From positions 1 to 60,180 of the IMG/VR virus record IMGVR_UViG_3300033146_003163: 60,180 nt of DNA. One strand, given 5' to 3'. This stretch comes from a virus. Shown piece by piece: positions 1,394 through 44,833 of this stretch (position 1 is the first letter of the stretch; each line of letters begins with the position of its first letter). A model generated the notes under the pieces. It had not been told where the DNA came from and ran no database searches. It was given only the letters and a program-made list of their open reading frames with translations. The position numbers and the translations under genes were made by a program.

Positions 1394-1450
1394 CCTAAGA
1401 GTACTTAAGAGTATTTAGGCAATGCAATATACTCAAAGAATGCTTAAGAG
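1394..1450 (-). promoter_or_regulatory. P1 regulatory element, diverged copy 1 (leftward)
   Basis: Read on the - strand it has CTTAAGCAT, a TATATTGCA core and a second CTTAAGTA followed by CTTAGG. The two CTTAAG boxes are separated by 33 bp, exactly as in the three rightward copies at 22089, 37378 and 44775. Much of the intervening sequence differs, so the spacing and boxes are conserved rather than merely copied. It points at the leftward gene starting at 1353. Promoter/operator function is inferred. Confidence 0.6.
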
Positions 1451-1505
1451 GCTATGCTGGCTTCTTAAATAATTCGGATGGGTGTCTGATAGCCCCTGTC
1501 ATACT

Positions 1506-1763
1506 TTAAAATTTTGGGTGTTTGGTACGGAGTATAGCAATATCCCGTAGAGTAGTTAAATCCCCTTTCTTTTCTAGGATCTCTACGAGGTCTATGATAA
1601 GGTCTATGAGCTCCCTGTCAAGCTTAACGCCACAAGCCTTAAGAGTAGCATCCAAAAGGGGGATAGTGACTTTATCGATAGGCTTGAACCAGGGAGCCCG
1701 TAGAGGAGCCTCAGGCCAATATCCCGGTGTATATGGGGATTGGGGTCCGTTCGGGAAATCCAT
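1506..1763 (-). CDS. Hypothetical protein (85 aa)
   Basis: The product has a Pro-rich N-terminus ('PNGPQSPYTPGYWPEAP') and a helical C-terminal half ('LDRELIDLIIDLVEILEKKG', then 'LRDIAILRTKH'). It follows the 96-residue gene without a gap and is the last gene before the inverted P1 element. No family is recognised. The composition suggests a small phage accessory protein with a disordered N-terminus. Confidence 0.6.
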   Translation of the reverse strand: MDFPNGPQSPYTPGYWPEAPLRAPWFKPIDKVTIPLLDATLKACGVKLDRELIDLIIDLVEILEKKGDLTTLRDIAILRTKHPKF

Positions 1764-2054
1764 CTAAGTAGCTGGATATTGATAAGAGCCCCCTGGAGCA
1801 ACGGCATCTGGACCAGGGTCTTCCTCAAAGGAAGGTTCGGCCTTTACTATGTTATTTGCAATTAAGAGCAATCGAGTATCATCATACCAGACTGATACTG
1901 CTTTCTTGTTCTTCTTCTTCGGTTTTGCTACTACGAGGTGTTGGTTGCACCCTGTTAGGTAATATACACTACCTGTTACTACGCCGGTGAACCCAGTTAC
2001 TATGTCCTTCACTTTGTCACCATTACTGAATTTGAATCTTCTTGTTGTTTCCAT
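1764..2054 (-). CDS. Small phage protein with SH3/KOW-like N-terminus
   Basis: The N-terminal half reads 'FSNGDKVKDIVTGFTGVVTG' followed by 'YLTGCNQHLVV', which resembles small beta-barrel (SH3/KOW-like) proteins that are frequent in tailed phages. The C-terminal third is acidic and Pro/Gly-rich and probably disordered. It sits between two other leftward small genes, abutting the 85-residue gene. Its function is unknown. The fold assignment is by pattern only. Confidence 0.6.
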   Translation of the reverse strand: METTRRFKFSNGDKVKDIVTGFTGVVTGSVYYLTGCNQHLVVAKPKKKNKKAVSVWYDDTRLLLIANNIVKAEPSFEEDPGPDAVAPGGSYQYPAT

Positions 2055-2060
2055 GTTTTG

Positions 2061-2261
2061 TTACGTATTTGGGGATTGTTTCGCCTCAATTTCCCAAGAT
2101 GGGTTTACTGTTGAAGAACCAGAATTAGGGCCCTCGGGTTTAGCCATGTCTTCCTGGATGAGCTTAGAGATATACTCTTCAATCTTGATTCTAGCTGCTC
2201 TACCTTGTCGGTGCAGATATTCAAGCTCTTCTTCTGAAATGTGAATCACGAAATGTATCAT
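2061..2261 (-). CDS. Ribbon-helix-helix-like small protein, possible regulator
   Basis: The 66-residue product begins with a strand-like segment ('MIHFVIHI') followed by 'SEEELEYLHRQGRAARIKIE' and 'EYISKLIQEDM'. This order (beta strand, helix, turn, helix ending xxIxxLIxE) is typical of Arc/MetJ-type ribbon-helix-helix DNA-binding proteins. The last third is Ser/Pro/Asn-rich and likely a flexible tail. If the fold is right it is a candidate for binding one of the phage's inverted-repeat elements, but nothing in the sequence shows the target. Confidence 0.5.
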   Translation of the reverse strand: MIHFVIHISEEELEYLHRQGRAARIKIEEYISKLIQEDMAKPEGPNSGSSTVNPSWEIEAKQSPNT

Positions 2262-2272
2262 ATCGATATAAA

Positions 2273-2804: not shown

Positions 2805-2820
2805 AATAATAAATTTTAAT

Positions 2821-2863
2821 GGTTTATAAAAAAAGCATTGGGAGGGTACTTTTCTCTCTTAAG
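2821..2863 (-). promoter_or_regulatory. P2 regulatory element, leftward copy
   Basis: On the - strand: CTTAAGAG, then a segment with GAAAA and CCCAATG, then CTTTTTTTATAAA. The distance from CTTAAG to the CTTTT box is 22 bp, the same as in the rightward copy at 53096. It lies 17 bp upstream of the ATG of the holin-like gene and points leftward, so orientation follows transcription. Promoter function is inferred. Confidence 0.6.
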
Positions 2864-3216
2864 TGGATGATTTTTATGTTTTAAGTGCATCATTTGCAAG
2901 GTCTTACCCCCACAATTAGAAAACTCCTCTAATGGTGATAAACTTAAGCATAATCCCCCCGAGACTTTTTGAGGTGGGTTGCTTTTATAGTTGCACTCCG
3001 ATAAAGGGGGGCAGGGGGGGTTTTCTTACCACGGGAAACGTGTACTCCTCTCGCTTAAAGGAAAATAAATTAAAGGTAGTCTATAGCAGGTTACCTTTCT
3101 TAGTGTTAGGTATAGGTTAGCAAATATAGGTTTAACTTTGTCTTATGTTCCCCAAAATTTTGCAAGCTCCCAGCACAGCGATAAGGAAAGTGCCAATTTG
3201 TCAGGGGGGATAAAAA
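2864..3216. other. Divergent intergenic region without a convincing gene
   Basis: This lies between the leftward and rightward transcription units. It contains two long G runs (around 3006-3020), an AT-rich stretch and a CTTTTATAGTT segment near 2981 that resembles a weak P2 core. A 62-codon frame at 2932-3120 has no start context or family resemblance. The region could hold operators or an origin, but I see no iterons or strong dyads. Confidence 0.5.
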
Positions 3217-3268
3217 CTTAAGCGGGAAAAGGCAAAAGCATAGCCCAGTGGCTTTTATTAATAAATAT
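3217..3268 (+). promoter_or_regulatory. P2 regulatory element upstream of methyltransferase/terminase block
   Basis: CTTAAG at 3217-3222, CCCAGTG at 3244-3250 and GCTTTTATTAATAAA at 3251-3265, followed 10 bp later by the ATG of the methyltransferase gene. It is the rightward counterpart of the element at 2821 and would drive the head gene block. Spacing from CTTAAG to the T-rich box (28-29 bp) is the longest of the set. Confidence 0.6.
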
Positions 3269-3275
3269 TATTGTT

Positions 3276-4292
3276 ATGTATAGCGTAATCGGATTATCTT
3301 CCGGGGCAGGCATAGTCCTGCACCCCTTTTATCAAAGTCCTGATGTAGAAGTTAAGGCCGGTATAGAATGCCGAAGAGATTATCTATTAGGGGGTATGCC
3401 CGTCCAATTCGAGTTGAATTTCCCAGATGTGACCTATTCAACTAACCTGGAAATCAAACCCGAGTCTGTAGATGTGGTGATCGGCCACCCTAAGTGTGGG
3501 ATGTCTTCCGTCTTCGCCCTCTCTAGAGGGAAGAAGAACACTTCCCATAAAAATGAGCCCTCTCTTGACCTCTTCATAGCAGGGATTCACAAGCTCTTCC
3601 CAAAGTACTTCCTACTTGAGAATCTGCCCAAATTACTGGACACGTACTCGGAAAAGGAGTTCGAAGAGATTTTTGCTAACTACCGGCTGATCTTTTGGCA
3701 CGGGTCAGTAAGCGAGTTCGGAAATTCCCAAAAATCCCGTAAAAGGCTTATTATAATAGGGATTAGGGCTGATCTCTACACCAAGAGAGCTCATAAACTC
3801 CTTTCAAAGCCTAAGCCCGTATATGAACCTCAAACCACTGGCCACCTCTTAATGCACCTTCCTGAGAACGGTCATATCACAGAGGATATCGAGGATGAGA
3901 TAACTATCTATGGTGGAAAGAAGATGTATCTCTGGCAATTACAAAAGTATTGGAGAGACAACCCCGACTTAACCAGGTTTGCTGTAAATAAGGGTAATAT
4001 GAAGTATGCCCCTGGCGTATACATAAACCGAGCAGATAACTACCCTAAGACTGTTCGGAAAACCAACAGGCAATTTAACCCAGACGGTATACAGATGTCC
4101 CCAAGGGAAATGGCCAGAATCCAGGGCGTACCCGATACCTTCAAACTCTGTATGCCAAGTAAACACTGTGTATACGAGGAAAAAACCCTTATTAATAAAG
4201 GCCGGCTGTCAATTGCCAATACCCCTCCTTATGAAGTGGGGCTTTGGTTTAAGCTTTGTATGGATAAGCTATTCCGAACAAATAACAAGTAA
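3276..4292 (+). CDS. DNA (cytosine-5) methyltransferase
   Basis: Transfers a methyl group from AdoMet to C5 of cytosine in DNA, probably to protect phage DNA or to mark it. The C5-MTase motifs are in canonical order: a motif I-like SSGAG start (residues 8-12) with acidic E31, motif IV 'GHPKCGMSS' with the candidate catalytic Cys74, motif VI 'ENL' at 115-117, motif VIII 'QKSRKR' at 152-157, then 'SPREMARIQGVPD' (motif IX) and 'IANTPPYEVG' (motif X). Motif IV is unusual because most enzymes read PPC. The 338-residue length suits a compact enzyme with a small target-recognition region (about 190-260). It is the first gene behind a P2 element, just ahead of terminase, with no restriction partner nearby. 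Confidence 0.88.
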   Translation: MYSVIGLSSGAGIVLHPFYQSPDVEVKAGIECRRDYLLGGMPVQFELNFPDVTYSTNLEIKPESVDVVIGHPKCGMSSVFALSRGKKNTSHKNEPSLDLFIAGIHKLFPKYFLLENLPKLLDTYSEKEFEEIFANYRLIFWHGSVSEFGNSQKSRKRLIIIGIRADLYTKRAHKLLSKPKPVYEPQTTGHLLMHLPENGHITEDIEDEITIYGGKKMYLWQLQKYWRDNPDLTRFAVNKGNMKYAPGVYINRADNYPKTVRKTNRQFNPDGIQMSPREMARIQGVPDTFKLCMPSKHCVYEEKTLINKGRLSIANTPPYEVGLWFKLCMDKLFRTNNK

Positions 4293-4317
4293 GAGTTAAT
4301 TAATTAATGTAAAAGGA

Positions 4318-5820
4318 ATGGCCAATAAGAAAGCCTCTTGGATAGGTACCCAGGGATTCACCTCTTCAGAATTAAAACTACTTGCAAGGTGTGCAAGAGA
4401 CCCTTTCTACTTTATCATCAACTTTTACTGGGTAGTACACCCTATAAAAGGTAGAGTACATTTTGCTTTGTACCCCTTTCAAATACGAGCTTTATGGGAC
4501 TTCTTAAATAACCGATTTAACGTTGTCCTAAAAGCTAGGCAGATGGGGTTATCCGAACTATTGGGTGCCTACATCCTTTGGTTAGTCCTTTTTCACCCCT
4601 ATAAGTCTGTAACCATTATCTCTCTTAAGGATAGGGTTGCTAAAAAGCTTTTAAGGAGAATACGTTTTGCCTATTCCAACTTGCCCCCCGTTTTACAGAC
4701 ACCAATTGTAAACGGTAGGCCTGGAGAAGTTGGTACAGCCTCTGAATTAGTCTTTTCGAATGGGTCTGGCATAGTTTCAGTTCCTACTTCTGAAGATGCT
4801 GGTAGGTCTGATGCTTTATCCCTATTAGTAATGGACGAGGCTGCTATTATGCAATACGCCGAGGTGATTTGGGCTTCTGCCTTTCCTACTCTGGCTACTG
4901 GGGGTTCTGCTATAGTTAACTCAACCCCGTATGGGGTAGGTGGGTTCTTTTACCAGACCTGGTCAGAGTCTCTATTTGGGGGTAACGACTTTAACCCTAT
5001 AAAGATTCACTGGCACCACCACCCTGACCGAGATATCGAGTGGTATAAAACAATGCGTAGGTCTTTAGGGGCTAAAAGGACAGCTCAGGAAATTGACTGC
5101 GACTTCCTTGCTTCTGGAGATACAGTATTTGACTTGGCTGACATAAAAGCTATCGAGGAAGACATTCAAGAAGCTCCTGTAATAGAGTCTAGGTTAAATG
5201 GTAACTTTTTAATCTTTAAAAGGCCTAAACCTGATACTCAATTTATAATTGGATCAGACGTATCTACAGGTAGGGCATCTGACTACTCTTCTTTTACTGT
5301 AATGGATGAAGCGGGTGATGAGTATGCAGCTTTTAAAGGTAGACTACCCGTTAACCGATTACGGGACTTATTAGGGGATACTGGGATAGAATATAACAAG
5401 GCTTTGGTTGCTCCAGAGGCTAATGACGTCGGAGAGGCAGTAGTATCGGGGTTACAGGAAAGGGGTTATCCAAACCTCTACTATCATATACAATTAGTAA
5501 AGGAAAGGCGAAGTGCTAAACCTGTACAAAAGAAGGTACCTGGCTGGTATACTACCGGAGCTAACCGATCTCTCATAATTTCAGCCTTAGAAGAGGACAT
5601 AAGAATGGGTAATGTCCACATTTTAGACCCATTCTTCACAAATGAGGCCTACACTTTCATATACGATGATATGAACCGCCCAGTTGCCCAAAATAAAGGA
5701 GAATACATTGGTGATGGGTCTGAGACCTATGCCGATGACGATATAATGGGGAAAGCCATTACAAATTTTGTAAGAAGAGGAAAGAGAAGAGCATTAACAC
5801 AAACAACACATCCAAGATAA
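4318..5820 (+). CDS. terL: Terminase large subunit
   Basis: Motor ATPase and nuclease that packages DNA into the prohead. The N-terminal ATPase has a phage-type Walker A 'KARQMGLSE' (residues 72-80), Walker B 'LLVMDEAAI' with D173/E174, and the coupling motif 'NSTPYG' (201-206). The C-terminal RNase H-like nuclease has acidic clusters at D314 ('GSDVSTG'), E367 ('APEAND') and 473-475 ('DDD'). The 500-residue length is typical of gp17-like proteins. The gene is followed one base later by the portal gene. No small terminase is recognisable upstream; one of the unidentified small proteins may fill that role. Confidence 0.93.
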   Translation: MANKKASWIGTQGFTSSELKLLARCARDPFYFIINFYWVVHPIKGRVHFALYPFQIRALWDFLNNRFNVVLKARQMGLSELLGAYILWLVLFHPYKSVTIISLKDRVAKKLLRRIRFAYSNLPPVLQTPIVNGRPGEVGTASELVFSNGSGIVSVPTSEDAGRSDALSLLVMDEAAIMQYAEVIWASAFPTLATGGSAIVNSTPYGVGGFFYQTWSESLFGGNDFNPIKIHWHHHPDRDIEWYKTMRRSLGAKRTAQEIDCDFLASGDTVFDLADIKAIEEDIQEAPVIESRLNGNFLIFKRPKPDTQFIIGSDVSTGRASDYSSFTVMDEAGDEYAAFKGRLPVNRLRDLLGDTGIEYNKALVAPEANDVGEAVVSGLQERGYPNLYYHIQLVKERRSAKPVQKKVPGWYTTGANRSLIISALEEDIRMGNVHILDPFFTNEAYTFIYDDMNRPVAQNKGEYIGDGSETYADDDIMGKAITNFVRRGKRRALTQTTHPR

Positions 5821-5821
5821 C

Positions 5822-7312
5822 GTGAGTATATTTGATAAGAATTTTTTTACACTAAGGTCTACTCCCAAGGAGAATACTTCTAAAAAGGAGAAGATCCAGG
5901 AGATAAACCCTCAGAAAACCGTAGGTGTAGGCTTACCAACTTCTAGGGTTAGTGTTCCCGATCTAGAGTCCTCTTATAAGGGGCTTAAGAACTCTATGGA
6001 TTTCGTAACCCCCGATTTCCAATATGAGTACATTCCAATCATCCGTAAGTTATTTAAGGTTAACTCTTCTGTCTTTAGATCTACAGTTACCCTTACAGAA
6101 TTGATTAACTCGGGTTTTAGCTTAGAATTTGACTCTTCAGTTACAGATGAAGTACGTAGAGATATAAACCAACATCTCAAAAAAGTATATAAAACATGGG
6201 GATTAGGTACAGCCGGTATTCACGGTATAATCAATAAAATGGTTAGCCAGATATATGTTGGAGGAGCCTTATCCGTAGAATGGGTCCTTAACAGAGACCT
6301 AACAGGTATAGATTGCCCGGTTTTCGTAAACCCTGAAAATGTCCGAGTAAGATATAACACTTCTACGGGGAGGTATGATTTTTATCAAGTCCCCCACTAC
6401 TGGGAGCCTGGAAGAGATTATACTAAGGATAACGGTGCTATATTACTTAACCCCATTACATATCGTTACTATGGCCTCTTTACTGATGAGGAAAGCCCCA
6501 TAGGAACACCTCCTTTCCTTTCTGCATTGGATGATATCCAATCTCAATTAAAGATGCTCCGTAATATAGGGTTTGTCACTGACCAGCTTGGCCTCATGGG
6601 ATTCTTGGAGGTCATGTTGTCTAAACCCCTCCAAGCAGACGGAGAGAAAGACACCGCTTATATAGCTAGATTAGCTAAGTATTTAAATGACGCAAAAGCT
6701 GCGATAAAAGATGGGACTAAGGACGGAGTAGTTGCAGGTTTTAAAGATGAACATGAGTTCGATTTCCACGCTACTACCAAAGACACCTCTGGGGTAGCAG
6801 ACATCTTTAATATTAACCAAAGGATGGTTTCAAATGGTCTCTTATCTCCCTCTCAGTTCTTGGGAGGAGAGAAAGCGGGGGCTGAGACTGGTTTAGGCAT
6901 TATTTTCACTATGCTATTATCCCAGCTTAACAATATCCAACAATACATATCTGAGATTTTGGAAACTGGAATTTGGATGGAGTTAACCCTTGCTGGGTTT
7001 AAATTTGATTGGTTAGAAGTTAAATTTGATAAGTCAACAGTTACTGATACTTTGAAAGAAGCCCAATCTGAAGAGATAAAGATTAGGAATTCCAATTTAC
7101 TATATGCAGCTGGTATCATATCTCAAGCAACATACGCCAATAGACATGGTTTTGATGCCCCTGACCAAGAGGAACCTCGAGTAGAGATTGATCCTGTAAA
7201 AGCCCAAGCTGAACAAGTAGCTAAAGACAACAAACAGGACCAAGACAACAAGTCCAACCAAAAAACTCGAGAGAAAGAAAAAACACAGCCGAAACGTAAA
7301 GATCAAAAATAG
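5822..7312 (+). CDS. Portal protein
   Basis: Forms the dodecameric ring at the head vertex through which DNA passes. Placement directly after terminase, the length (496 aa) and segments such as 'NPENVRVRYN', 'DIQSQLKMLRNIGFVTDQLG' and a central helix-rich wing fit gp20/SPP1 gp6-type portals. The C-terminus (about 455-496) is a highly charged Lys/Gln/Asp tail, probably disordered. It starts with GTG one base after the terminase stop; no ATG gives a better fit. Confidence 0.88.
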   Translation: MSIFDKNFFTLRSTPKENTSKKEKIQEINPQKTVGVGLPTSRVSVPDLESSYKGLKNSMDFVTPDFQYEYIPIIRKLFKVNSSVFRSTVTLTELINSGFSLEFDSSVTDEVRRDINQHLKKVYKTWGLGTAGIHGIINKMVSQIYVGGALSVEWVLNRDLTGIDCPVFVNPENVRVRYNTSTGRYDFYQVPHYWEPGRDYTKDNGAILLNPITYRYYGLFTDEESPIGTPPFLSALDDIQSQLKMLRNIGFVTDQLGLMGFLEVMLSKPLQADGEKDTAYIARLAKYLNDAKAAIKDGTKDGVVAGFKDEHEFDFHATTKDTSGVADIFNINQRMVSNGLLSPSQFLGGEKAGAETGLGIIFTMLLSQLNNIQQYISEILETGIWMELTLAGFKFDWLEVKFDKSTVTDTLKEAQSEEIKIRNSNLLYAAGIISQATYANRHGFDAPDQEEPRVEIDPVKAQAEQVAKDNKQDQDNKSNQKTREKEKTQPKRKDQK

Positions 7313-7326
7313 TAAACATAAAAAAT

Positions 7327-8862
7327 ATGAAAAGTATGAAAAAGCCTAACTTTCCAGAGGTTATGTCTCTGACTCTTTCCCAAGGCCACAGCCTAGTAGT
7401 AGGCCATATCCCTGATAAGGTTTCTATGAGCGATTTATCAAGAGCTATCGTAGAGAATGCTACAGCTGAGTCTATTAAGAGTTTTGGGTTGTTTGACAGT
7501 ACAGCCCCCAATTATACTACTTTCTATCCTGATGCTACGCCTGATGACTGGACTCCCAAAGAAGAAGACTTTGTTACCCCAGTCTTCAGGCTTTTTTCTG
7601 AAACGATCGTGGTTAAGTATGGTATCCCTATTGATTTCTCTACCCCTGGGTTATTAAAGAACTCTATGGGGATGTTAGTTGGGGCTACAGTTAACCCCGA
7701 CCATGAGGGCGGTTCTGTTGGGAATGCTTTGGGGTCTATTCCCTCTGTAGAGTGGCAAGAGAGCTACACTGTTAAAGGAGTACAGATTCCAGCAGGTATC
7801 CTTGGGAAATTGAAGATCGATGCTAAATCTAACCCCAGGATTGCTAGAGGGGTTATGATGGACCCGCCTAGTATCCATTCTACTTCCGTAACTGTAAGGT
7901 TTAAATGGGAGAAGTCCCATCCAGACATGGAAGATTTTTGGGAGAAGGTTGGGTCTTACGATAAGGATCAAAACCTTATTCGGCTTATCGTAACTGAGAT
8001 TACTTCTTATCCTGAGGTATCCTTAGTACACCACGGGGCTGACCCATATGCCCAGAAAACTAACTCAAGTGGGGCTATCGTTAATCCCATTTATGCGAAA
8101 TCCGTATATGCTTTCTCAGCTGACCCTACTGATGGCTCTGAATTAAAGTGCGGTATTAATTTTAAAGGTCTTTGCAGCCTGGCTGCTGACAATACATTTA
8201 TTCATAATCCAAAATCTAATAAAATGGAACTTAAACAAATTTTAGCAATGTTGGGCCTGGCTGAAGATGCCTTTGCAACTCAGGAAGAGCTGCTTGCCCA
8301 TTACGAATCTTTAACTGCTGACCGTACCTCTCTCGAAGATATTTCGACTGAGTTGGGGATTGACGAGGAGTCTTCTCCCGTTGATGCTATTAAAGCCCTC
8401 AAGGATAACCAGATCCCTGAAGGAGCTAAGCTTATGACCGACAAAGAGGCTGCTTTAATAGCCACTTTAACGGAAGTATTCGGAGAAGCTCTCGATACCA
8501 CTGATTGGGCAGAACTTTCTGCTTTAGCTGGTGATGGTAAAACTTACCTCGAGGATATCCGTAGTAAAGCAACTTCCCTGTACAAACTGGTTTCAGGAGA
8601 AGAAAACGTTGATCCTACTATCGTGGAGGCTATCGAAAAAGCTTCTCTCAAAGAAGTTAAAGCCTACGAAGTCATGTACCAGAAACTGGCCGATACCACA
8701 GCCCCTCTCACTTGTCAGGAGTGTGGTTCCAAAAATGTATCTAGAGCTTCTGCTAAGATTGACCCTAAGCCTGGGGAGGATGGCAAAGGTTCCTATGCTG
8801 ATACCAAAAAGAAGGTAGTCGATTCTCACAAACGTAAAGCTTCTGATATCCACGGCGAATAG
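7327..8862 (+). CDS. Prohead protease fused to a scaffold-like domain
   Basis: The N-terminal part (about 1-280) resembles capsid maturation proteases. It ends in the segment 'EVSLVHHGADPYA', which corresponds to the 'EVSLV…ANP' stretch of HK97-type prohead proteases. The C-terminal part (about 298-460) is acidic and helical ('MELKQILAMLGLAEDAF…'), like an internal scaffold released after cleavage. A short CQECG segment near 465 resembles half of a zinc ribbon. Protease-scaffold fusions upstream of the capsid gene are well known in phages. The catalytic triad could not be assigned with certainty by eye. Confidence 0.7.
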   Translation: MKSMKKPNFPEVMSLTLSQGHSLVVGHIPDKVSMSDLSRAIVENATAESIKSFGLFDSTAPNYTTFYPDATPDDWTPKEEDFVTPVFRLFSETIVVKYGIPIDFSTPGLLKNSMGMLVGATVNPDHEGGSVGNALGSIPSVEWQESYTVKGVQIPAGILGKLKIDAKSNPRIARGVMMDPPSIHSTSVTVRFKWEKSHPDMEDFWEKVGSYDKDQNLIRLIVTEITSYPEVSLVHHGADPYAQKTNSSGAIVNPIYAKSVYAFSADPTDGSELKCGINFKGLCSLAADNTFIHNPKSNKMELKQILAMLGLAEDAFATQEELLAHYESLTADRTSLEDISTELGIDEESSPVDAIKALKDNQIPEGAKLMTDKEAALIATLTEVFGEALDTTDWAELSALAGDGKTYLEDIRSKATSLYKLVSGEENVDPTIVEAIEKASLKEVKAYEVMYQKLADTTAPLTCQECGSKNVSRASAKIDPKPGEDGKGSYADTKKKVVDSHKRKASDIHGE

Positions 8863-8930
8863 CCTTCCCCGGATACTACAAGTACTCTTGCTTTAATTAT
8901 TGAAATATTATACATTAAAACTTAAATATT

Positions 8931-9386
8931 ATGACTTGGACATTAGGGTCGACTTCAAAATCGACAATTTTAAAATCGGAGTCCCACAAGCTCTTTCAAG
9001 AGTTTGAGGTCTCGGGCACTATCCACAAAGGACAGCCCGTTCTGCTTGAGCCTGCCACCGGAAAAGTTATAGCTTCTCCTGGTACTGCTGCAGACAAAGA
9101 CGACATTATCGGAATCTCCATCCACGAAGGTAACTCCATTTATGGGGATACTGTAGTAGTGATGATGAAAGCTTTTGCTATCGTTTCTTGTAAACTGGGT
9201 GCTGACGCTACTGCTGGTAAAGTACAGTATTCTGGATACGATACAAGTGATGCTTATCCTGGAAACCAGAAAGAATTTGCTGGTTATAACTTGGTCGAAC
9301 AGGCCGCTAATACCACCCAGATGTGGGGTTGGGCATTACAGCCGGGCGTAGCTGATGAGATTGTAGAAGTAGCTGTTTCTGTATAA
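8931..9386 (+). CDS. Probable head decoration protein
   Basis: A 151-residue, beta-rich protein between the protease/scaffold and the capsid gene, where lambda gpD-like or DUF2190-like decoration proteins lie. The sequence 'GTIHKGQPVLLEPATGKVI' followed by 'DDIIGISIHEG' and 'VVVMMKAFAIVSC' resembles the beta-tulip type of cement protein in which a small barrel is capped after capsid expansion. No other function is suggested. Confidence 0.68.
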   Translation: MTWTLGSTSKSTILKSESHKLFQEFEVSGTIHKGQPVLLEPATGKVIASPGTAADKDDIIGISIHEGNSIYGDTVVVMMKAFAIVSCKLGADATAGKVQYSGYDTSDAYPGNQKEFAGYNLVEQAANTTQMWGWALQPGVADEIVEVAVSV

Positions 9387-9447
9387 AGGATCTTACTTCG
9401 GATTAGTTTATTAAATCGAATTTTCGAACTTACAAAATACCTAAAAA

Positions 9448-10563: not shown

Positions 10564-10585
10564 TCGTCCAGAATTGAAAATTAGT

Positions 10586-10640
10586 TAAAAAGGGGGTTGA
10601 AGAGGGCACGGTAGTCCACCTCGGGATACTCCCTTTTTTT
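10586..10640 (+). terminator. Probable intrinsic terminator after the capsid gene
   Basis: An outer stem pairs AAAAAGGG (about 10587-10594) with CCCTTTTT (10631-10638), an inner GAGG can pair with CCTC, and the 3' side runs into seven T residues. It lies 25 bp after the capsid stop codon and would reduce read-through into the neck genes, giving capsid excess. Confidence 0.65.
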
Positions 10641-10667
10641 AGTATTACACTTTAAAAACAAAAGAAA

Positions 10668-10997: not shown

Positions 10998-11008
10998 AAT
11001 AATTCGTT

Positions 11009-12800: not shown

Positions 12801-12801
12801 G

Positions 12802-13482: not shown

Positions 13483-13500
13483 TCATAAAACCTTTAAAAA

Positions 13501-15033: not shown

Positions 15034-15066
15034 TCATTTAAGTAATAACCTTTAAAAAATATTATT

Positions 15067-15609: not shown

Positions 15610-15650
15610 TAGGAGGAGATTTAGGATCAAGAGTATCACCTACTGCAGTA

Positions 15651-16360: not shown

Positions 16361-16375
16361 TTCTAAATTCTCGTT

Positions 16376-26160: not shown

Positions 26161-26164
26161 AACG

Positions 26165-37373: not shown

Positions 37374-37377
37374 TACT

Positions 37378-37436
37378 CTTAAGCATACTTAAACTATATA
37401 TTGCAATTACTATGCACTTAAGTATGCTTAGGGATG
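37378..37436 (+). promoter_or_regulatory. P1 regulatory element, copy 3
   Basis: Identical to copy 4 (44775) over about 57 bp, from CTTAAGCATACTTAA through the TATATATTGCAATTAC core to CTTAAGTATGCTTAGGGAT. Perfect 12-bp inverted repeats (AAGCATACTTAA and TTAAGTATGCTT) flank a 25-bp centre. It begins 4 bp after the adhesin stop and precedes the lipoprotein gene by about 70 bp. It lacks a T tract and strong GC stem, so a terminator is unlikely. Confidence 0.7.
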
Positions 37437-37507: not shown

Positions 37508-39034
37508 ATGAAAAGATTAATTTTCTTTAGCCTTGCAGTGCTTATGACACTCGGCTTTTTAACTCAGTCTTGTAAAAAAGACTTGCCTACTATGGGTACA
37601 GAAAAAGGACAGCTCCAGCTCTCCCTTAACCAGACCGATTTTCAAACTGGTCTGAAAGATGTAGGCTTTGACTCTGTACCGGAGTGTAGTGACCTTGGTT
37701 GGTCCTATGCAAAATTTGTTATCAATGGAGACACCATCAAAACTGGGCTTATTACAATGGCCGACGGTACCGTTAATACGGAACCTTTACAATTAGATGT
37801 AGGGGTATATACCGTAACACGTTTTTGGGTATTTAACGACAATGGTACTCCCAATGACGAAAGTGATGACATCCTTATCCGAGCAGCCCCCCTACCTGGT
37901 AGTACGTACTACCCTCTTGTGGCTAATGCCCTCGACATCAGTGTGGAGATACAAGCTTTTAAAAAGGTTAATTACGTTATCGACGTACTATGCTATGAGG
38001 AGCTGTTCTATGAAGAGTTTGGATTCGTATGGTTTACCCTAAATGACGTGGTGGTACATCAGATCTGCGTTTTTGGGGATGTCTGTACAACCGATCCCGA
38101 TTTATATGCCGGGAGCCTTTATGAGGGGCAGCAAAACGGTCTACAGATGGATATGCCGGCAATCTTCGAGGCTCTAATTTACAAGAATGAGGTACTCCAA
38201 TCAACATTTAGCAATGAGGCGTGGCTCGGTGAAGGCGAATGCTTGCCGGTGTACTGGGCAGATGATGTTGACCTCGATGAGGACTTCTATCTGGTTATTA
38301 AAACATTGCTACCGGTAGGAACAGGCTTTGGATATGTTACCACAGATAGTATTGCGATTGATCCGGATGATGGAAGCGGGCTTATGCTTGATGATGGTGT
38401 TCTCGTCTTCGAAGTAGGTGATTGTAATGGGGGGCCCAACGTTTATGGGTGTACAGCTTGGATTAATCTACCCACCACTACTTTCACTTTCACCTTATCA
38501 GGAAATAGCTACATGGTTATCGATGCAGGTACAGGAGATACTACCTGGTACCCGGCATCCCTTGGCACATACTTTAGCTATGACTTCAGCGGAGTACCCA
38601 GTGGCTATGCGGTCCACGATGGGACTTGGGCTGGTTGGTGCGGAGATAAGAATACTGGAATCTCTGGAGGTAATAGTTACACTGCGAAATTTGTAAGTTC
38701 AGTTCAGCCACTTCCCACTGGTTTTTATTTAAGCCAGACACAAGTTAATGAGTTAAACTGGATCTTCAACCATTTGCAGGACTTCTTCCCTGGCTTAGAT
38801 CAAGATGATTGGGTAAGTTGGCAAACTTCACATCCGGGAGAGTTTTACGAACTTCAAACAGCGATCTGGATGATTACGAATGGTATCAGTTCAGGGAGCC
38901 ATACTTTAGCACAATCTATTTACGATGTAGCTATCGCGAATCCCTTGTATAGTCCTCCGATGGATGGTACAGGTATTGTATTTGTTTATATGGGTAATGA
39001 TATACAGCTTCAATTTATACAGCTGCACTGTTAA
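37508..39034 (+). CDS. Phage-encoded lipoprotein with thioester-domain-like C-terminus
   Basis: A type II signal peptide is clear: MKR, a hydrophobic core (residues 4-18) and lipobox 'LTQSC' with lipidated Cys22 followed by KKD. The mature protein would be an outer-membrane or surface lipoprotein of a Bacteroidota cell. Residues about 30-305 are beta-rich. From about 365, 'GTWAGWCGDKNTGI' (Cys378) and, 72 residues later, 'YELQTAIWMITNG' (Gln450) resemble the Cys and Gln segments of thioester (TED) adhesion domains. It stands alone behind P1 copy 3 and ahead of a hairpin. Possible roles are superinfection exclusion, host-surface remodelling, or a moron-type cargo. Lipoprotein status is solid; the thioester reading is tentative. 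Confidence 0.75.
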   Translation: MKRLIFFSLAVLMTLGFLTQSCKKDLPTMGTEKGQLQLSLNQTDFQTGLKDVGFDSVPECSDLGWSYAKFVINGDTIKTGLITMADGTVNTEPLQLDVGVYTVTRFWVFNDNGTPNDESDDILIRAAPLPGSTYYPLVANALDISVEIQAFKKVNYVIDVLCYEELFYEEFGFVWFTLNDVVVHQICVFGDVCTTDPDLYAGSLYEGQQNGLQMDMPAIFEALIYKNEVLQSTFSNEAWLGEGECLPVYWADDVDLDEDFYLVIKTLLPVGTGFGYVTTDSIAIDPDDGSGLMLDDGVLVFEVGDCNGGPNVYGCTAWINLPTTTFTFTLSGNSYMVIDAGTGDTTWYPASLGTYFSYDFSGVPSGYAVHDGTWAGWCGDKNTGISGGNSYTAKFVSSVQPLPTGFYLSQTQVNELNWIFNHLQDFFPGLDQDDWVSWQTSHPGEFYELQTAIWMITNGISSGSHTLAQSIYDVAIANPLYSPPMDGTGIVFVYMGNDIQLQFIQLHC

Positions 39035-39049
39035 ACCCTTTTGGTTATC

Positions 39050-39074
39050 GGGGATAGGGGTTAAGCCTATCCCC
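39050..39074 (+). terminator. Hairpin after the lipoprotein gene
   Basis: GGGGATAGG (39050-39058) pairs with CCTATCCCC (39066-39074) around a 7-base loop. No T run follows, so it may be a rho-dependent or weak terminator or an mRNA-stabilising hairpin. It isolates the lipoprotein gene, which has its own P1 element, from the structural genes downstream. Confidence 0.5.
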
Positions 39075-39115
39075 TGTAATCACAAGTAAGTTTTGACTAT
39101 TAATTAAAATTAGGT

Positions 39116-40159
39116 ATGGGACGTTTATTTGGAAAACTTGGATTTAACTTAGGGTTTGCTGGTAGTTTAGAAGCTCCTGAAACCCCTTTAGAGGGGTACC
39201 CATTAGAGCAGCATCCCGACTGGAGAGTCCTACAAGGTATTTACGATACAAAACTAGGCTGGAGAAAAAGAGGAGAAACGATATTTGTTAGAAACCAGCC
39301 TGTCTCTGGGGTAAAAAATCTAGCTTTTAAATCCTTTTATCTGGAGGACGGTTACATATTGGGTACATACCTATATCAACCAATGTCTGGGGAGACTTGG
39401 ACAATCCCCTTTGCTAAGATGGTAAATGGAAACAACATCATTGGAGCTAGGATATTGGCTAACAAGGTTGAGATAGTACAAAGGAGAAACGGAACATGGG
39501 CGACTAGAGCTTCTACACCTGTCCCAGCAGGCTCATCTCATTGGGTTGTACATATCACTAATGACCATGTCTATGTAGAGATAGATGGAGTACCTGTACT
39601 GGACAGTTCTCACGCTGTACCCGGTCCAGGTTATTTCGGTATTAGTATGCACAAATTTGAGATTGGAGCAGAAACTGATTTCTTAGAGAATTACAAGGTA
39701 TTTGCAGAAGAGCCCATCACATATCGAGGAGAGCTGATAACATATAACCAAAAAATCATAAAAGACATGGCTGAATTATTTAACATATTAGCATATGAAA
39801 AATCTCTCGTAGCTAGCGTAGAGGTTACAGCAGTAGACCCTGACTGGTTACCCATTAACCAGCTTGTAACACAGGAGAAAGAACCGGGGGATTACGAAGT
39901 ACTATTCTCTATGGGTTGGAGTTATGATGTTACCAATAAATCGGGTAAGATCAGGTTTTCACTTGACGGAGGATCTAGCTGGGAGGAGAGATCAGAAGAA
40001 CCGAAAGATAAGACCGACAAAAGGACATCGAGTATTATCCTTCCATTGACCCTTACTACAGCCCAAACCCTGGACATCCAGCTGGAGGCTAACAAGGAGG
40101 GGACGGACCATATCATGACAATTCACCATTCGCTGATCTCCATTCAGCGAGTGAAATAA
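39116..40159 (+). CDS. Structural protein with LamG-like lectin fold
   Basis: A 347-residue protein. About residues 55-195 read as a concanavalin/LamG-type sandwich: 'YILGTYLYQPMSGETWTIPF', 'NKVEIVQRRNGTW', 'SHWVVHITNDHVYVEIDGVP' and 'PGYFGISM'. A second beta domain (about 225-347) includes 'GKIRFSLDGGSSWEE'. This suggests a carbohydrate-binding tail or head fibre component. The small genes on its 3' side are probably co-transcribed. Confidence 0.6.
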   Translation: MGRLFGKLGFNLGFAGSLEAPETPLEGYPLEQHPDWRVLQGIYDTKLGWRKRGETIFVRNQPVSGVKNLAFKSFYLEDGYILGTYLYQPMSGETWTIPFAKMVNGNNIIGARILANKVEIVQRRNGTWATRASTPVPAGSSHWVVHITNDHVYVEIDGVPVLDSSHAVPGPGYFGISMHKFEIGAETDFLENYKVFAEEPITYRGELITYNQKIIKDMAELFNILAYEKSLVASVEVTAVDPDWLPINQLVTQEKEPGDYEVLFSMGWSYDVTNKSGKIRFSLDGGSSWEERSEEPKDKTDKRTSSIILPLTLTTAQTLDIQLEANKEGTDHIMTIHHSLISIQRVK

Positions 40160-40180
40160 ATAATCAAAAACAAAGAAAAC

Positions 40181-40621
40181 ATGGAACAAAGATTGCAAGA
40201 TGTATTAGTACCTAAGGATTCAGTATCCTTTGAGGTACCTTTGAACACAACTTGGAGAAGAGAGTACGGCTCTCTTAACCTTGTATTTGGCATTGAATAT
40301 GAGAATCGTAAAGTAGGTTTACTATTCAAAGCACAACCTCAACCCGATGGTTCTATCACAGGAGAATTCTGGGCAGGTACCATTCCCACTACTGCAGAGG
40401 GAACCTGGGATCTTAAGAAGCTGTCTGACTTAGAGAACTGGAATGGAGTACACACCTTTGAGATTGGTCACGATGATGACGAGGTTTTCGTTATAGAGAA
40501 AAAACACCCAATTTCAATAAGCCACCGTTTCGAAGCCCATGATGTTGGAGAGCCCTTAAGCTTTTTAACACCCGCTTTCAGGTGGAGACCTCGTTGGGAC
40601 GTTAAAGTTAAACTTGTTTAA
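40181..40621 (+). CDS. Hypothetical beta-rich structural protein (146 aa)
   Basis: The product alternates short strands and turns ('SLNLVFGIEYENRKVGLLFK', 'HTFEIGHDDDEVFVIEKKHP') and has no signal or membrane segment. Its style and position next to the LamG-like protein suggest a small virion or fibre-associated protein. No family is recognised. Confidence 0.55.
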   Translation: MEQRLQDVLVPKDSVSFEVPLNTTWRREYGSLNLVFGIEYENRKVGLLFKAQPQPDGSITGEFWAGTIPTTAEGTWDLKKLSDLENWNGVHTFEIGHDDDEVFVIEKKHPISISHRFEAHDVGEPLSFLTPAFRWRPRWDVKVKLV

Positions 40622-40632
40622 AACCCATAACT

Positions 40633-40908
40633 ATGGAATTAGTAGCACAACAGGGCTTAGATAATGCCCAACTTTTGTATCCTGGTAAGTCTTTGATAGC
40701 TCTTACAGATGGAGCAGCCCATGATCCCCAATTAACCCGTCCCACTGTGGCTCGGATTTTTACAACCCAAGCTGGAGTAAAGCTTTCTATTGACCCCGTA
40801 CCGGAAGTCACTAAAGCTTTCACCTTAAACGTGGGAGAGAATATCTGGGGAGTCCCTGGTGGAGCCCAGATCTGCGTATTTGGAGGTGACGCTGAACTGA
40901 TGTACTAG
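40633..40908 (+). CDS. Hypothetical small structural protein (91 aa)
   Basis: A compact beta-rich protein ending 'LNVGENIWGVPGGAQICVFG' and an acidic tail. It begins 11 bp after the previous stop, and its own stop abuts the next ATG with no gap, so the three genes are one translational unit. No family is recognised. Confidence 0.5.
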   Translation: MELVAQQGLDNAQLLYPGKSLIALTDGAAHDPQLTRPTVARIFTTQAGVKLSIDPVPEVTKAFTLNVGENIWGVPGGAQICVFGGDAELMY

Positions 40909-41169
40909 ATGAAAAGGATCTTAGCAGTATTTCTGATAGTAGGGAGTCTCTTAGTAGCCTCCCTACTTATTCAGTGTAACACTCTTCATAATCCTAAGCG
41001 GGAAGTTAAGGAAAGGACTATCTCTGTAGATACTGTCTTTGGTCCTAATGGCCAGATCCTTTACATAAAGAAACATCACTCAAATGAGTTTAAGGAGGAG
41101 GTGTATCTATACTCTATAGTAGGTTTAATGGTAGTCCTTATCGCATTAGTTTTGTACGGAAAAAAATAA
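40909..41169 (+). CDS. Lipobox plus C-terminal helix protein, spanin-like
   Basis: The 86-residue product starts with MKR, a hydrophobic run (residues 4-21) and lipobox-like 'LLIQC' (Cys23), then about 40 polar residues, then a C-terminal transmembrane helix (about 65-83, 'YSIVGLMVVLIALVLYG'). An outer-membrane lipid anchor plus an inner-membrane C-terminal helix is the layout of unimolecular spanins, which fuse the two membranes at lysis. The periplasmic part is much shorter than in known u-spanins, so it could instead be a small double-anchored membrane protein with another role. Confidence 0.45.
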   Translation: MKRILAVFLIVGSLLVASLLIQCNTLHNPKREVKERTISVDTVFGPNGQILYIKKHHSNEFKEEVYLYSIVGLMVVLIALVLYGKK

Positions 41170-41175
41170 TAAAAG

Positions 41176-42615
41176 ATGAATAAAAATCACATTGAATATT
41201 TAGACCCTATAGATTCCTTCCCACAGCAGGAAGCTAGAATACCTCTTGCTAAGCCCGGTAGGTATTTGGGATTTGACACTTGGGTAGCAGATGGCCAAGG
41301 TACAGGGGACATCCCCATTCGAGTAGGCCATTCCAAAAAAGGGGTTTTGGGGATTGTCCCTGCCCAGCCCTTTTCAGATGAAGCCAACACTCTTCAGTAC
41401 ACGGGAACTCTAGTGACTTGTCAAGGTGTAGTACATAACCGCATCATAGATAATATCCTAATAGAGGGGATTCCACTATCCTTTGACAGTAACACTGGAA
41501 CTCAGGATAAGTACTGGTTATTTTATGGAAGGTACTCTTGGGTTCCCACTGCTGGCGGGTCACAGGTAGAGTTCGGGATCTATGAATTTTCTCCGACTAA
41601 CCTAGAGGAGATAGACCTATGGGAATTTATTACTTCTCCCAATATAGAGTTCCCCATAGGATACTTTGTTATTAAACCTAACACAACTGACATCACGGGG
41701 TTAGCTTATTACCCAGCCTTAACCCCTAAATTCGCTTGGTCAGAGGAAGCTTACTTTGATCCCAACTTATATGCTAAGCTGTGGGAATACAATGAGTTCC
41801 ACATGACCAACTACCTACAGCTCCAAGAACTAAACGATGATAATGTTGACACCAGTGCTTGGGAGCTAAGCTTTGATGGGGATAAGGGCAATGTTATCGA
41901 TGTCACTTTAACTAAGCCCCTAACCGCTTTGGTCACTATAAACAGTGGGAATAGAAGAACACAGGGAGTATACTTTTTTAAGTTTTCTAGCTTGGCCCAT
42001 GAGCCTTTAAGGTTGTTTGAAACAGGCAATATCAAAATACCCCCTGGTGCAGAAGAGATGTATTACGGGGCAAGAGTTATGAATGTTTATCATGGCCAAA
42101 CCCTGATAATGCTTAAATCCACGAACATGGTAGGCCAAGAGGTTTGGACAATTTGGAATAAATTTCCAGAGTCTCGTATACGGGGAACCTGGAAAACTCT
42201 AGACCCTAAAGTATTAGAGAACCCATCGTATATCCAGTTTGATTACCTGGAGTATCTTAAAGACCCATTCACTGGACATGTTAAAATCCGGGCTCAGATA
42301 AGGCAAACTAGGCCTAGTGGAATAGTTTCTGGTACTTATAACAATGTGGCTAATGTACCTCTTCCGATTGATTACTCCCCATCGACTTGTCCAACAGACC
42401 CCTCCACTTGTAGGATGGCTGTACAACATGCCATTTGTACTACTGCCTACAAACAATCCATAGCGGGTATACCAGATCCCCCCGGTTTTGAAACTACTAT
42501 GGCTATTGTTTCTGCTGTTCTGGTTATTACCCCCGATAATACTATCGACCTAATTGTACAGGACTTAGAGCCTGGTACTTACCTGTTTTCTGAATTCCAT
42601 CTTTCTAATGGATAA
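41176..42615 (+). CDS. Large hypothetical structural protein (479 aa)
   Basis: A beta-rich protein with many aromatic residues and Thr/Pro turns, no signal peptide and no repeats. The N-terminus ('KPGRYLGFDTWVADGQGTGD') and a segment '…PIGYFVIKPNTTDITGLAYY' look like phage baseplate or fibre appendage proteins. It is the last gene of the structural block and is followed within 30 bp by a strong terminator. No family is recognised. Confidence 0.55.
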   Translation: MNKNHIEYLDPIDSFPQQEARIPLAKPGRYLGFDTWVADGQGTGDIPIRVGHSKKGVLGIVPAQPFSDEANTLQYTGTLVTCQGVVHNRIIDNILIEGIPLSFDSNTGTQDKYWLFYGRYSWVPTAGGSQVEFGIYEFSPTNLEEIDLWEFITSPNIEFPIGYFVIKPNTTDITGLAYYPALTPKFAWSEEAYFDPNLYAKLWEYNEFHMTNYLQLQELNDDNVDTSAWELSFDGDKGNVIDVTLTKPLTALVTINSGNRRTQGVYFFKFSSLAHEPLRLFETGNIKIPPGAEEMYYGARVMNVYHGQTLIMLKSTNMVGQEVWTIWNKFPESRIRGTWKTLDPKVLENPSYIQFDYLEYLKDPFTGHVKIRAQIRQTRPSGIVSGTYNNVANVPLPIDYSPSTCPTDPSTCRMAVQHAICTTAYKQSIAGIPDPPGFETTMAIVSAVLVITPDNTIDLIVQDLEPGTYLFSEFHLSNG

Positions 42616-42641
42616 GATCCCGTTCCTGTGTTTCTTTTGCT

Positions 42642-42667
42642 GGGCCCCGTTTGGGGCCCTTTTTTTG
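42642..42667 (+). terminator. Strong rho-independent terminator ending the structural block
   Basis: GGGCCCC (42642-42648) and GGGGCCC (42653-42659) form a seven-pair GC stem with a four-base loop, followed by eight T residues. This is the best terminator in the window and separates late structural genes from replication genes. Confidence 0.92.
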
Positions 42668-42686
42668 TTTACAAAAATTAATTCCC

Positions 42687-42719
42687 TTGTAAACCGTATA
42701 ATCTTTTTTATTATATTTG
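42687..42719 (+). promoter_or_regulatory. Host-type (Bacteroidota) promoter
   Basis: TTG at 42687-42689 and TATATTTG at 42712-42719, 22 bp apart, match the Bacteroidota housekeeping pattern (-33 TTG, -7 TAnnTTTG). It lies just behind the strong terminator and 23 bp before the ATG at 42743, so it likely starts the early or replication transcript using host RNA polymerase. Confidence 0.6.
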
Positions 42720-42742
42720 CATTACATATTAAAAAAGGGTTT

Positions 42743-43306
42743 ATGAAAGCACAGGACAAAATGTTAAGGCTATTTTCCGAGACGGAAGGCCTTAAAAAGA
42801 AGTTAGCTTCTAGTTTTAATTACAGTCGATATGGTTTTTCTTACGATGACATTATCGGCTTTCTTGATGACAAAATCATCCACGTATTTATGAGGTATCC
42901 CGATAAGGATTACGAGGAATTATTGGGGTTGTGTATTACTTCTATGAGAAGGGTTATCCCTCGGTTAGCCAGGAAGTATGGCAGGGAAGTATTAGTAGAT
43001 AGTATAGTTTTCGAAAGAGCGGTTACCGAAGAAGCTCCTCAGATATCTACTTTAATCTCTAACGTGATCCCCCTGCTAGAAACACATAGTAGGGCCTTGA
43101 TAGAGGTAATCCTAGACCCACCCGCTTACATCCTTGCACGGGTAACTAACCCGGACCACAGAATCCCCTCTCACTTGTTTCTCGAGTATTTAGATTTCCC
43201 TATAAACAAACAAACCGTTAAGATGTTTAATAAATTTAGACGGGACCTGTTTAGTTTTATACGAGAAAAAATAGACCCTGAAACACTTGAATTAAAATAT
43301 ACTTAA
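42743..43306 (+). CDS. Putative sigma-factor-like protein
   Basis: I start it at 42743 because the longer frame from 42608 would run through the terminator and promoter. The 187-residue product has 'FSYDDIIGFLDDKIIHVFMR', then 'DYEELLGLCITSMRRVIPRL'. This is the spacing of a sigma region 2 ('D-D-hh-…-hhxxhhRxxhxR'). The C-terminal 'LFLEYLDFPINKQTVKMFNK' is compatible with a helix-turn-helix. It is the first gene behind a host-type promoter, where a phage transcription factor would be expected. Fold and role are inferred and should be tested by profile or structure comparison. Confidence 0.4.
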   Translation: MKAQDKMLRLFSETEGLKKKLASSFNYSRYGFSYDDIIGFLDDKIIHVFMRYPDKDYEELLGLCITSMRRVIPRLARKYGREVLVDSIVFERAVTEEAPQISTLISNVIPLLETHSRALIEVILDPPAYILARVTNPDHRIPSHLFLEYLDFPINKQTVKMFNKFRRDLFSFIREKIDPETLELKYT

Positions 43307-43345
43307 GTTCGATAGAATTTTAATCCCCATTGGCTTTTATAATAT
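43302..43345 (+). promoter_or_regulatory. P2 regulatory element upstream of helicase
   Basis: CTTAAG at 43302 contains the stop of the preceding gene. ATTTTAATCCCCATTGG follows at 43316, and CTTTTATAATATA at 43333-43345 runs directly into the ATG at 43346. The distance from the TATAAT-like box to the start codon is only 3 bp. If that box is a -10, the transcript must be leaderless or start upstream of the usual point. Confidence 0.6.
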
Positions 43346-44770
43346 ATGGAAGAAAATAAATTTTCCTTTGACCTGACATTTCAGGCAGAGGTACTTCGAT
43401 TTATACTAAACAATAGCGATGGTTATAAAGCCCTTGATTTTATAAACCATCGCTATTTCTCCTTGTTAGAGCATAGCATCATAGCTCATGCGCTAGAGGC
43501 TTTGTGGAAGAATACTTCTAATATTCCTTCTAAGCCTTTGTTAAGGAATGCTATCCAGGCATCTTTCAGAGACCGGATGTTTGCCGATGCTTTAACATCA
43601 AATGATCGAGCTGATATCTTGACTCTTGTAGAAGACCTGTACTCTAGGCCTGCGAAGGATGGGAAAGAGATTTTAGTAGAGATAGTAAGATTCGCTTCCT
43701 ATGTGGACCTTAAAAACACTCTTGAAAACTTTCAGCTAGAGGACTACAGTTCTTACAAAAGTTTTAGCGAAAGGGTAATCCAAGCCATCCATAAAGAGGA
43801 CCAGTTAAAGGAGAAGCGAGGAGCTTTCTTAATAAAAGATATCAAAGAAAGACAGCTATCAAGGCAAGCACAAGATTTGATCATACCATCACCTTTCTAC
43901 CAATTGAATAGGTTAACAAGCGCAGGGGGTTTTTCCCCTGCTTCTGTGTTAGTTATCTTGGATAAACCTAAGAGGTTAAAGACTACTCTGATGGTTAACA
44001 TAACCAGAAGGTATTTAGCTAGGAAGAAGAAGGTACTATACATTGACCTTGAGAATGGGGAACTAGAGATAGTGACTAGAGAAGAACAGAGTATCGGAAG
44101 AGTTACTAAGAAGGAGATTATAGCTGGGACTAAGGATAAGGAAATACAAAAGGTCTTAAGGAGGTATAGGAGGATAGGGGGAGAGATGTACGTAAGAAGG
44201 CTACCTGGTTTCTCTACTGCCTTAGATATCCAGAGAGTGATTAACGAAATATACCGGGAAGAGGGGTTACTATTTGACGTTCTCATCATTGATTACCTAG
44301 CCCTTATGGGAAGTATATCTGGAAAGACTGATGACTTTGGACGTATCTCAGATGCTTATGTAGATGTGGCTAACTTGGCTTTCGAGAATAGCTTCGAGGT
44401 TGTATGGACAGCTAACCACGTAGTAAGGGGTGCTTCTAAACGGGAAAGGACTAGGTATATTGGGGACGATATTGCAAAGTGTATCGATATCGTAAGACAC
44501 GCTCAGGGGATCTTTGGCCTTAACCGGTCCATCGAAGAAGAGGAGAATGGGATAGTTAGGCTAGAGATTGTAGAGGGCCGAGAAACTCTTCCAAGAGGGA
44601 GGGGATACTTTAGGGTCGATGCTCCAACCCAACGAGTAGATGAGTTAACTAAGAAAGAGGTTGCACAGCTAACTGCTGAAGGGATTCTTTATAACCCAGA
44701 CAACGCCTACCAGGAAGAAGGAGAAGAGGACTCTCCCAAGAAGAAGGGGAAGCCAACTGGAGACATTTAA
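43346..44770 (+). CDS. DnaB-type replicative helicase with degenerate P-loop
   Basis: The 474-residue protein has an N-terminal helical domain (about 1-175) and a RecA-like motor domain: P-loop region 'LDKPKRLKTTLMVN' (K212, T213), 'KVLYIDLENGELEIVTREEQ', Walker B 'DVLIIDYLALM' and 'WTANHVVRGAS' near the usual sensor position. The P-loop lacks both glycines of GxxxxGK[T/S] but keeps the Lys-Thr. The following primase gene supports a replisome role (T4 gp41-like). The C-terminus is acidic, then basic and probably disordered. Confidence 0.78.
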   Translation: MEENKFSFDLTFQAEVLRFILNNSDGYKALDFINHRYFSLLEHSIIAHALEALWKNTSNIPSKPLLRNAIQASFRDRMFADALTSNDRADILTLVEDLYSRPAKDGKEILVEIVRFASYVDLKNTLENFQLEDYSSYKSFSERVIQAIHKEDQLKEKRGAFLIKDIKERQLSRQAQDLIIPSPFYQLNRLTSAGGFSPASVLVILDKPKRLKTTLMVNITRRYLARKKKVLYIDLENGELEIVTREEQSIGRVTKKEIIAGTKDKEIQKVLRRYRRIGGEMYVRRLPGFSTALDIQRVINEIYREEGLLFDVLIIDYLALMGSISGKTDDFGRISDAYVDVANLAFENSFEVVWTANHVVRGASKRERTRYIGDDIAKCIDIVRHAQGIFGLNRSIEEEENGIVRLEIVEGRETLPRGRGYFRVDAPTQRVDELTKKEVAQLTAEGILYNPDNAYQEEGEEDSPKKKGKPTGDI

Positions 44771-44774
44771 TATG

Positions 44775-44833
44775 CTTAAGCATACTTAAACTATATATTG
44801 CAATTACTATGCACTTAAGTATGCTTAGGGATA
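44775..44833 (+). promoter_or_regulatory. P1 regulatory element, copy 4
   Basis: Carries the same left and right arms (AAGCATACTTAA and TTAAGTATGCTT, 12 bp, perfectly complementary) and TATATATTGCA core as copy 3. It starts 4 bp after the helicase stop. A further TATATTGC at 44877-44884 lies 20 bp before the preferred primase ATG and could be the -7 box actually used. Confidence 0.7.

Follow-up and report, generated by a model that had tools for sequence, protein, structure and literature searches.

IMG/VR virus record IMGVR_UViG_3300033146_003163, analysed here over 60,180 bases (the window), contains a repeated intergenic cassette in which two CTTAAG boxes lie exactly 39 bp apart around a promoter-like core. 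Family searches of the window name the structural genes terminase, portal, head protease, major head protein, tail sheath and tape measure, together with replication and recombination genes for a DnaB-type helicase, a primase, DNA polymerase A, a UvsX-like recombinase and an SbcC-like protein. Because of this gene content, we assign the phage to the myoviruses. Its host is likely a member of the Bacteroidota, since the gene leaders are A/T-rich, with a Shine-Dalgarno-like sequence in only 6 of 57, and several relatives carry clear Bacteroidota promoters (TTTGCAT-N-TATATTTGCAT). A tyrosine integrase, a resolvase and an HTH_3 repressor were all sought in the record and none was found; lacking both integrase and repressor, the gene content gives no sign of lysogeny.

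The paired CTTAAG cassette

CTTAAG-N33-CTTAAG is found four times in the window:

22089-22146, plus strand: cassette copy 1, CTTAAG boxes at 22089-22094 and 22128-22133, inner -7-type box TATATTGC at 22108-22115; orthologous copies in the related phages G001 and G002
37378-37435, plus strand: cassette copy 2, boxes at 37378-37383 and 37417-37422, inner box at 37397-37404
44775-44832, plus strand: cassette copy 3, boxes at 44775-44780 and 44814-44819, inner box at 44794-44801
1391-1448, minus strand: cassette copy 4, inverted and diverged, boxes at 1443-1448 and 1404-1409, inner box TATATTGC at 1424-1431

A preliminary description of this DNA had reported three near-identical copies and, near 1394-1450, a fourth that is inverted and diverged and keeps its 33-bp gap. 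That account holds. Copies 2 and 3 are identical at 58 of 58 bp and copy 1 differs from them at 3 of 58 positions, giving a range of 95-100% identity on the plus strand. The inverted copy (1404-1448) has 25 mismatches in 60 positions and retains the gap exactly. The four pairs at 39 bp compare with 0.018 expected at any one spacing, and random placement of CTTAAG never produced more than two pairs at any spacing up to 200 bp. The hexamer occurs 33 times in the window, mostly outside the cassettes, versus 18.4 expected from base composition. A position-matrix scan of the kind proposed in the preliminary description recovered exactly four copies (scores 59-76); the next score, 11.6, belongs to a copy read backwards.

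All four copies are intergenic, though intergenic DNA makes up only 5% of the window; the sole exception is a 5-base overlap of copy 1 with the upstream stop codon. Copies 2 and 3 each start 5 bp past the upstream stop, and their second box ends 85 bp short of the next ATG. Copy 4 faces the leftward genes, which begin at ATG 1353. The start codons at 44905 and 42743 were chosen over longer open reading frames (44841 and 42608) by leader position and homologue alignment.

Two related phages carry the cassette: G001 (IMGVR 3300002856_000030), found by a helicase search, has two copies, and G002 (3300033146_000406), found by a terminase search, has one. The helicase of G001 is 59% and its head protein 70% identical to those of the window; the head protein of G002 is 90% identical. 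One G001 copy (G001:14571-14615) and the G002 copy occupy the site of copy 1, flanked by homologues of 21365-22093 on one side and of 22263-22625 on the other. The second G001 copy precedes the helicase gene; the window has a copy after it. At the site shared by all three phages most of the interior has changed, and the boxes and their spacing (39 or 40 bp) have been kept. In all seven copies both CTTAAG boxes are unchanged and TA comes directly after the right one; the gap measures 33 bp, or 34 bp in G002. Rather than being scattered inside genes without orientation, all seven are intergenic and face the genes downstream.

The perfect 12-bp arms emphasized earlier (AAGCATACTTAA/TTAAGTATGCTT) do exist at 37378 and 44775, but they are found neither at 22089 nor at 1404 and are not the conserved feature. 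Many half-sites, read from outside toward the box, instead resemble CC(A/T)AAG-nn-TA-CTTAAG, and this pattern runs on in the left flanks, past the limits first given for the element. The sequences support the earlier suggestion of sequence-specific DNA recognition with operator-like arms.

Outside these three phages we did not recover the cassette. A pattern holding both boxes and ATTAS, searched over 2.9 million viral contigs, matched only the window, G001 and G002; a near-exact 45-mer scan of IMG/VR and blastn against known phages gave no matches. In more distant relatives no two CTTAAG sites are 39 bp apart, and no other hexamer repeats the same palindromic-pair layout in the relatives. In G010, G011 and G016 there is little or no gap at the site of copy 1. 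The DNA polymerase, used as a query, recovered no viral relatives. A related phage contig, L059 (PWOA01000087.1), whose head protein is 54% identical, is binned in a Cloacimonadota metagenome-assembled genome.

The wider family (G029, G010, G011, G016, G020 and G022) has a strand-specific, promoter-like motif of its own, GGTACTATTATATAA, 15-60 nt upstream of many genes; in G029 it lies at 9725, 14008, 20657 and 30641 on the minus strand. Allowing up to 3 mismatches, we counted 16 sense and 3 antisense occurrences against 3.2 expected from shuffles, for a motif derived from the same data. This motif may be the family's ancestral phage promoter.

Promoter-like boxes and proposed transcription units

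The preliminary description had likened the cassette core to the host box TAnnTTTG. The core is indeed promoter-like, but it does not have that form: in all four window copies TATATTGC fits TAnnTTGY, a reported promoter box (SM5 class) located at -12 to -5 in Flavobacterium psychrophilum and supported by mutagenesis (PMC9723704). TATATTGCA occurs five times in the window on either strand, at the four cores and at an outer box downstream of copy 3. The outer boxes are:

22189-22196, plus strand: -7-like box TAAATATG, 61 bp past the right CTTAAG of copy 1
44877-44884, plus strand: -7-type box TATATTGC, 63 bp past the right CTTAAG of copy 3

The outer box is weak at copy 2 and there is none at the diverged leftward copy. 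To compare the two positions we used five independent copies and defined a -7-type box as a 7/8 match to TAnnTTTG, or TAnnTTGY. An inner box lies 20-22 bp before the right CTTAAG in four of the five (shuffle P about 4e-5). An outer box lies 57-63 bp after it, also in four of five and in copies from all three phages (shuffle P about 7e-5). Both P values serve as indications only, because the two offsets were picked after the data had been seen.

Host-type elements are missing from the cassettes themselves. Every window cassette lacks the host sigma-A pair (TAnnTTTG with TTTG about 20 bp upstream), the -33 TTTG element and the perfect host box TATATTTGC. A sigma-70 -35/-10 promoter was also rejected: the four copies hold no coding-strand consensus match and no enrichment over shuffles, and two 9/12 matches do overlap the leftward copy, but they lie on the opposite strand. 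Perfect host-form boxes are found between genes at two places only, and with a terminator, a candidate regulator gene and the gene order they outline the proposed units:

3120-3128, minus strand: host-type -7 box TATATTTGC, facing the leftward genes, with no good -33 element at the usual distance
42712-42720, plus strand: host-type -7 box TATATTTGC, 31 nt upstream of ATG 42743 of the sigma-like gene, with TTG at 42687
42642-42666, plus strand: strong intrinsic terminator, with 7 G-C pairs and then seven T, between 37508-42615 and the sigma-like gene
42743-43306, plus strand: candidate regulator, sigma-like, 187 amino acids
22263-37373, plus strand: proposed unit of copy 1, the baseplate and fibre block, with putative limits drawn from gene order
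37508-42615, plus strand: proposed unit of copy 2, from gene order and the terminator at its end
44905-59904, plus strand: proposed unit of copy 3, with primase, polymerase and other replication genes

Because host-type boxes occur at just those two places and a terminator lies at 42642, one reading of the right arm is that the cassettes at 22089, 37378 and 44775 drive their own blocks, whereas the host-type promoter drives 42743-43306 and the helicase. For the head and early tail genes (3276-22093) we identified no promoter of either kind.

Several neighbouring features deserve mention. Within the proposed unit of copy 1, 26165-35062 encodes a 2,965-residue protein with long collagen-like Gly-X-Y repeats, probably a tail fibre; the next gene, 35112-37373, has BspA-type leucine-rich repeats and F5/8 domains. 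Between the divergent arms lies a 471-bp intergenic region (2805-3275) with CTTAAG at 2858, 2943 and 3217 and the minus-strand host-type box, likely a control or replication region. The left end (1-340) is rich in C, repeats ATCCC/CCATCCC many times and has no called gene.

A candidate regulator and competing explanations

Two products had been put forward as candidate regulators. For 2061-2261 (66 amino acids) we found no family match and nothing that ties the product to the sites. The 42743-43306 product fares better, having its own host-type box and an N-terminal fold predicted to resemble sigma domain 2, with weak statistics. Modelled in full, the protein scores low on overall confidence (predicted template modelling score, pTM, 0.44). 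Its best match in the PDB is a sigma factor, as are many of the listed matches, all with E above 1, and several weak viral matches of the product are phage sigma factors. The N-terminal 83 residues are well modelled (predicted local distance difference test score, pLDDT, 93; pTM 0.82). Their PDB matches of low root-mean-square deviation are largely sigma domain 2, from SigE and SigA (TM-score 0.5-0.6, probability up to 0.66, E above 1), and also include entries for potassium channels, immunity proteins and designed binders. Searching solved structures by profile gave chance-level matches only. These predictions are suggestive of a sigma-like protein rather than proof of a sigma factor.

The gene has relatives in a conserved setting. 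Homologues neighbour the helicase gene in G001, G016, MT121964, MT121960 and other viral loci, and in every homologue examined TATATTTG lies about 30-55 nt upstream of the ATG. Except in the window and G001, the gene is transcribed in the opposite direction to the helicase. Together, 42743-43306 and its homologues in L004, L060-L071, MT121964 and MT121960 appear to form a new sigma-like family whose genes adjoin the helicase gene, almost invariably in divergent orientation, and each have a host-type promoter box.

We think it somewhat more probable than the alternatives combined that each cassette is a promoter specific to the phage, dependent on a regulator and placed at the head of one transcription unit. 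Under this model, the TATATTGC core would serve as a -7-type box for host RNA polymerase. With the inner box at -12 to -5, the left CTTAAG would occupy -31 to -26, the usual place of the host -33 TTTG, and the right one +9 to +14. Both inverted half-sites, each consisting of CTTAAG and its outward flank, would be recognized by a phage DNA-binding protein with sequence specificity, possibly the 42743-43306 product. Once bound, this protein would substitute for the absent -33 contact and open the promoter, acting as an activator and not a repressor. Opening would come after the early genes, themselves made from host-type promoters, and would place expression of the fibre block, the region 37508-42615, the replication block and a leftward block in the middle or late phase. 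A second -7-like box about 80 bp downstream may provide a tandem start.

A more specific version of this model is possible, and we offer it tentatively. The cassettes could represent an undescribed class of Bacteroidota-phage promoter, in which a TAnnTTGY-type core is enclosed by two copies of one palindromic box, spaced at 39 bp. Their reader would be a sigma-like phage protein from a new family, produced early under a host promoter. Within this sub-lineage the cassette would overlie or replace a family-wide TACTAT...TATATAA phage promoter.

Several points weigh against the regulator-dependent promoter. The inner box is absent from one G001 copy (G001:14571). The box downstream, at its fixed distance, competes as a promoter, and the diverged leftward copy is without it. 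The Pfam profiles Sigma70_r2 and Sigma70_r4_2 do not match the 42743-43306 product, and the sigma-like call relies on structure matches with E above 1. Nothing ties this product to CTTAAG, the Bacteroidota host is an inference, and the virus record may be incomplete.

The first of the rival explanations, which we consider rather unlikely, moves the promoter downstream. The boxes would be distant, enhancer-like activator sites and the real promoter a module (GATAC/TATAC ... TATATNTGC) about 60 bp past the right CTTAAG, which would therefore place the boxes near -70 and -109. The recurrence of the outer box at 57-63 bp is what this explanation predicts. Moreover, the two G001 copies have the same outer box, TATATATGCAA, while the inner box is not kept, and in G002 a reduced distance downstream makes up for the extra base separating the boxes and keeps the left box 86 bp from the module. 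Yet all four window copies have a perfect inner box, the outer box fails or nearly fails at two of them, and a start at the module in one G001 copy would leave almost no leader.

If the boxes instead served as repressor operators, for example for early or late shut-off of the units, the left one would cover the -33 region and the right one the start. The boxes do flank the inner promoter at classical operator positions (box placement per PMC9723704). However, that promoter would be weak without help because no -33 element is seen, and the missing HTH_3 repressor and integrase leave no sign of lysogeny. We judge repression improbable.

A mobile element similar to a miniature inverted-repeat transposable element, or a recombination or inversion site, could also have spread through the intergenic gaps. 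Three near-identical copies at unrelated genes, with an inverted-repeat look, would fit such an origin. On the other hand, orientation strictly follows transcription in three phages, box spacing is kept despite diverged interiors, and one copy occupies the same site in all three. The flanks of the copies differ and show no target-site duplication, and the record has no resolvase or integrase (other transposase families were not searched). This origin is very improbable. Least credible of all is an element that works as RNA, a 5' hairpin or attenuator: stable hairpins form at 37378 and 44775 (z -3.8 and -5.2), but the other five copies fold like shuffles or slightly better (z -1.9 to +0.6), there is no Rfam match, and the hairpin is not a conserved feature because the perfect 12-bp arms exist in two copies only. 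An intrinsic terminator at the cassettes is likewise ruled out, since no T-run follows the element.

Comparison with known systems

The preliminary description had invoked mycobacteriophage stoperators, which likewise recur across a phage genome in a set orientation. Each stoperator is a single site of 13 bp; a genome can hold up to about 30 of them, most lie away from promoters, and an immunity repressor binds them (PMC6550527). The analogy fails: the window has four long bipartite sites, all at unit starts, and neither an HTH_3 repressor nor an integrase. The extended start-associated sequences (ESAS) of Cluster K mycobacteriophages are nearer in form, being inverted repeats of similar half-site length that lie upstream of a subset of genes and are conserved between related phages. 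ESAS, however, have inverted repeats of 17 bp whose spacer varies from 4 to 13 bp, and they adjoin a 13-bp start-associated sequence (PMC3203893). The cassette gap is fixed at 33-34 bp in seven of seven copies, no 13-bp start-associated sequence accompanies it, and the copies occur at unit starts only. By spacer length and fixed gap, the cassette is not an ESAS.

Of the Bacteroidota promoters, sigma-A TAnnTTTG and SM5 TAnnTTGY (PMC9723704), the second fits the core TATATTGC of the window copies. Paired CTTAAG boxes are not described there, and the cassettes lack the -33 TTTG. We found no description of a long, fixed-spacing, double-box cassette in the accessible literature. Nor did we find a described early-to-late transcription switch of Bacteroidota phages in open-access literature, which is weak evidence of absence. 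The cassette is a sequence-defined candidate for such a switch, with target units and a candidate regulator conserved across a myovirus family, and, in a phylum for which few genetic parts exist, it could also be put to use as a promoter triggered by infection.

In its proposed function, the cassette would come closest to the middle promoters of T4 or to the phage-sigma promoters that phiEco32-like phages use. The T4 MotA box is centred at -30 and replaces the -35 element (PMC2988021), a geometry close to that of the cassette if the inner box is at -12 to -5. Both systems would pair a host-like box close to the start with a phage-specific box near -30 that takes over from the upstream element of the host, and both would have several copies at later transcription units. 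Unlike the T4 box, the cassette box is palindromic and doubled 39 bp apart, with one box downstream of the putative start. General family searches turned up no MotA or AsiA homologue, though no targeted search was made. In phiEco32-like phages, promoter positions, not sequences, are conserved between phages (PMC8948821). Like phiEco32 and 7-11, the window phage has a sigma-like gene and shares putative promoter positions with its relatives while sequences change; the promoters of those phages are short one- or two-part elements, and sigma activity in the window phage is only suggested.

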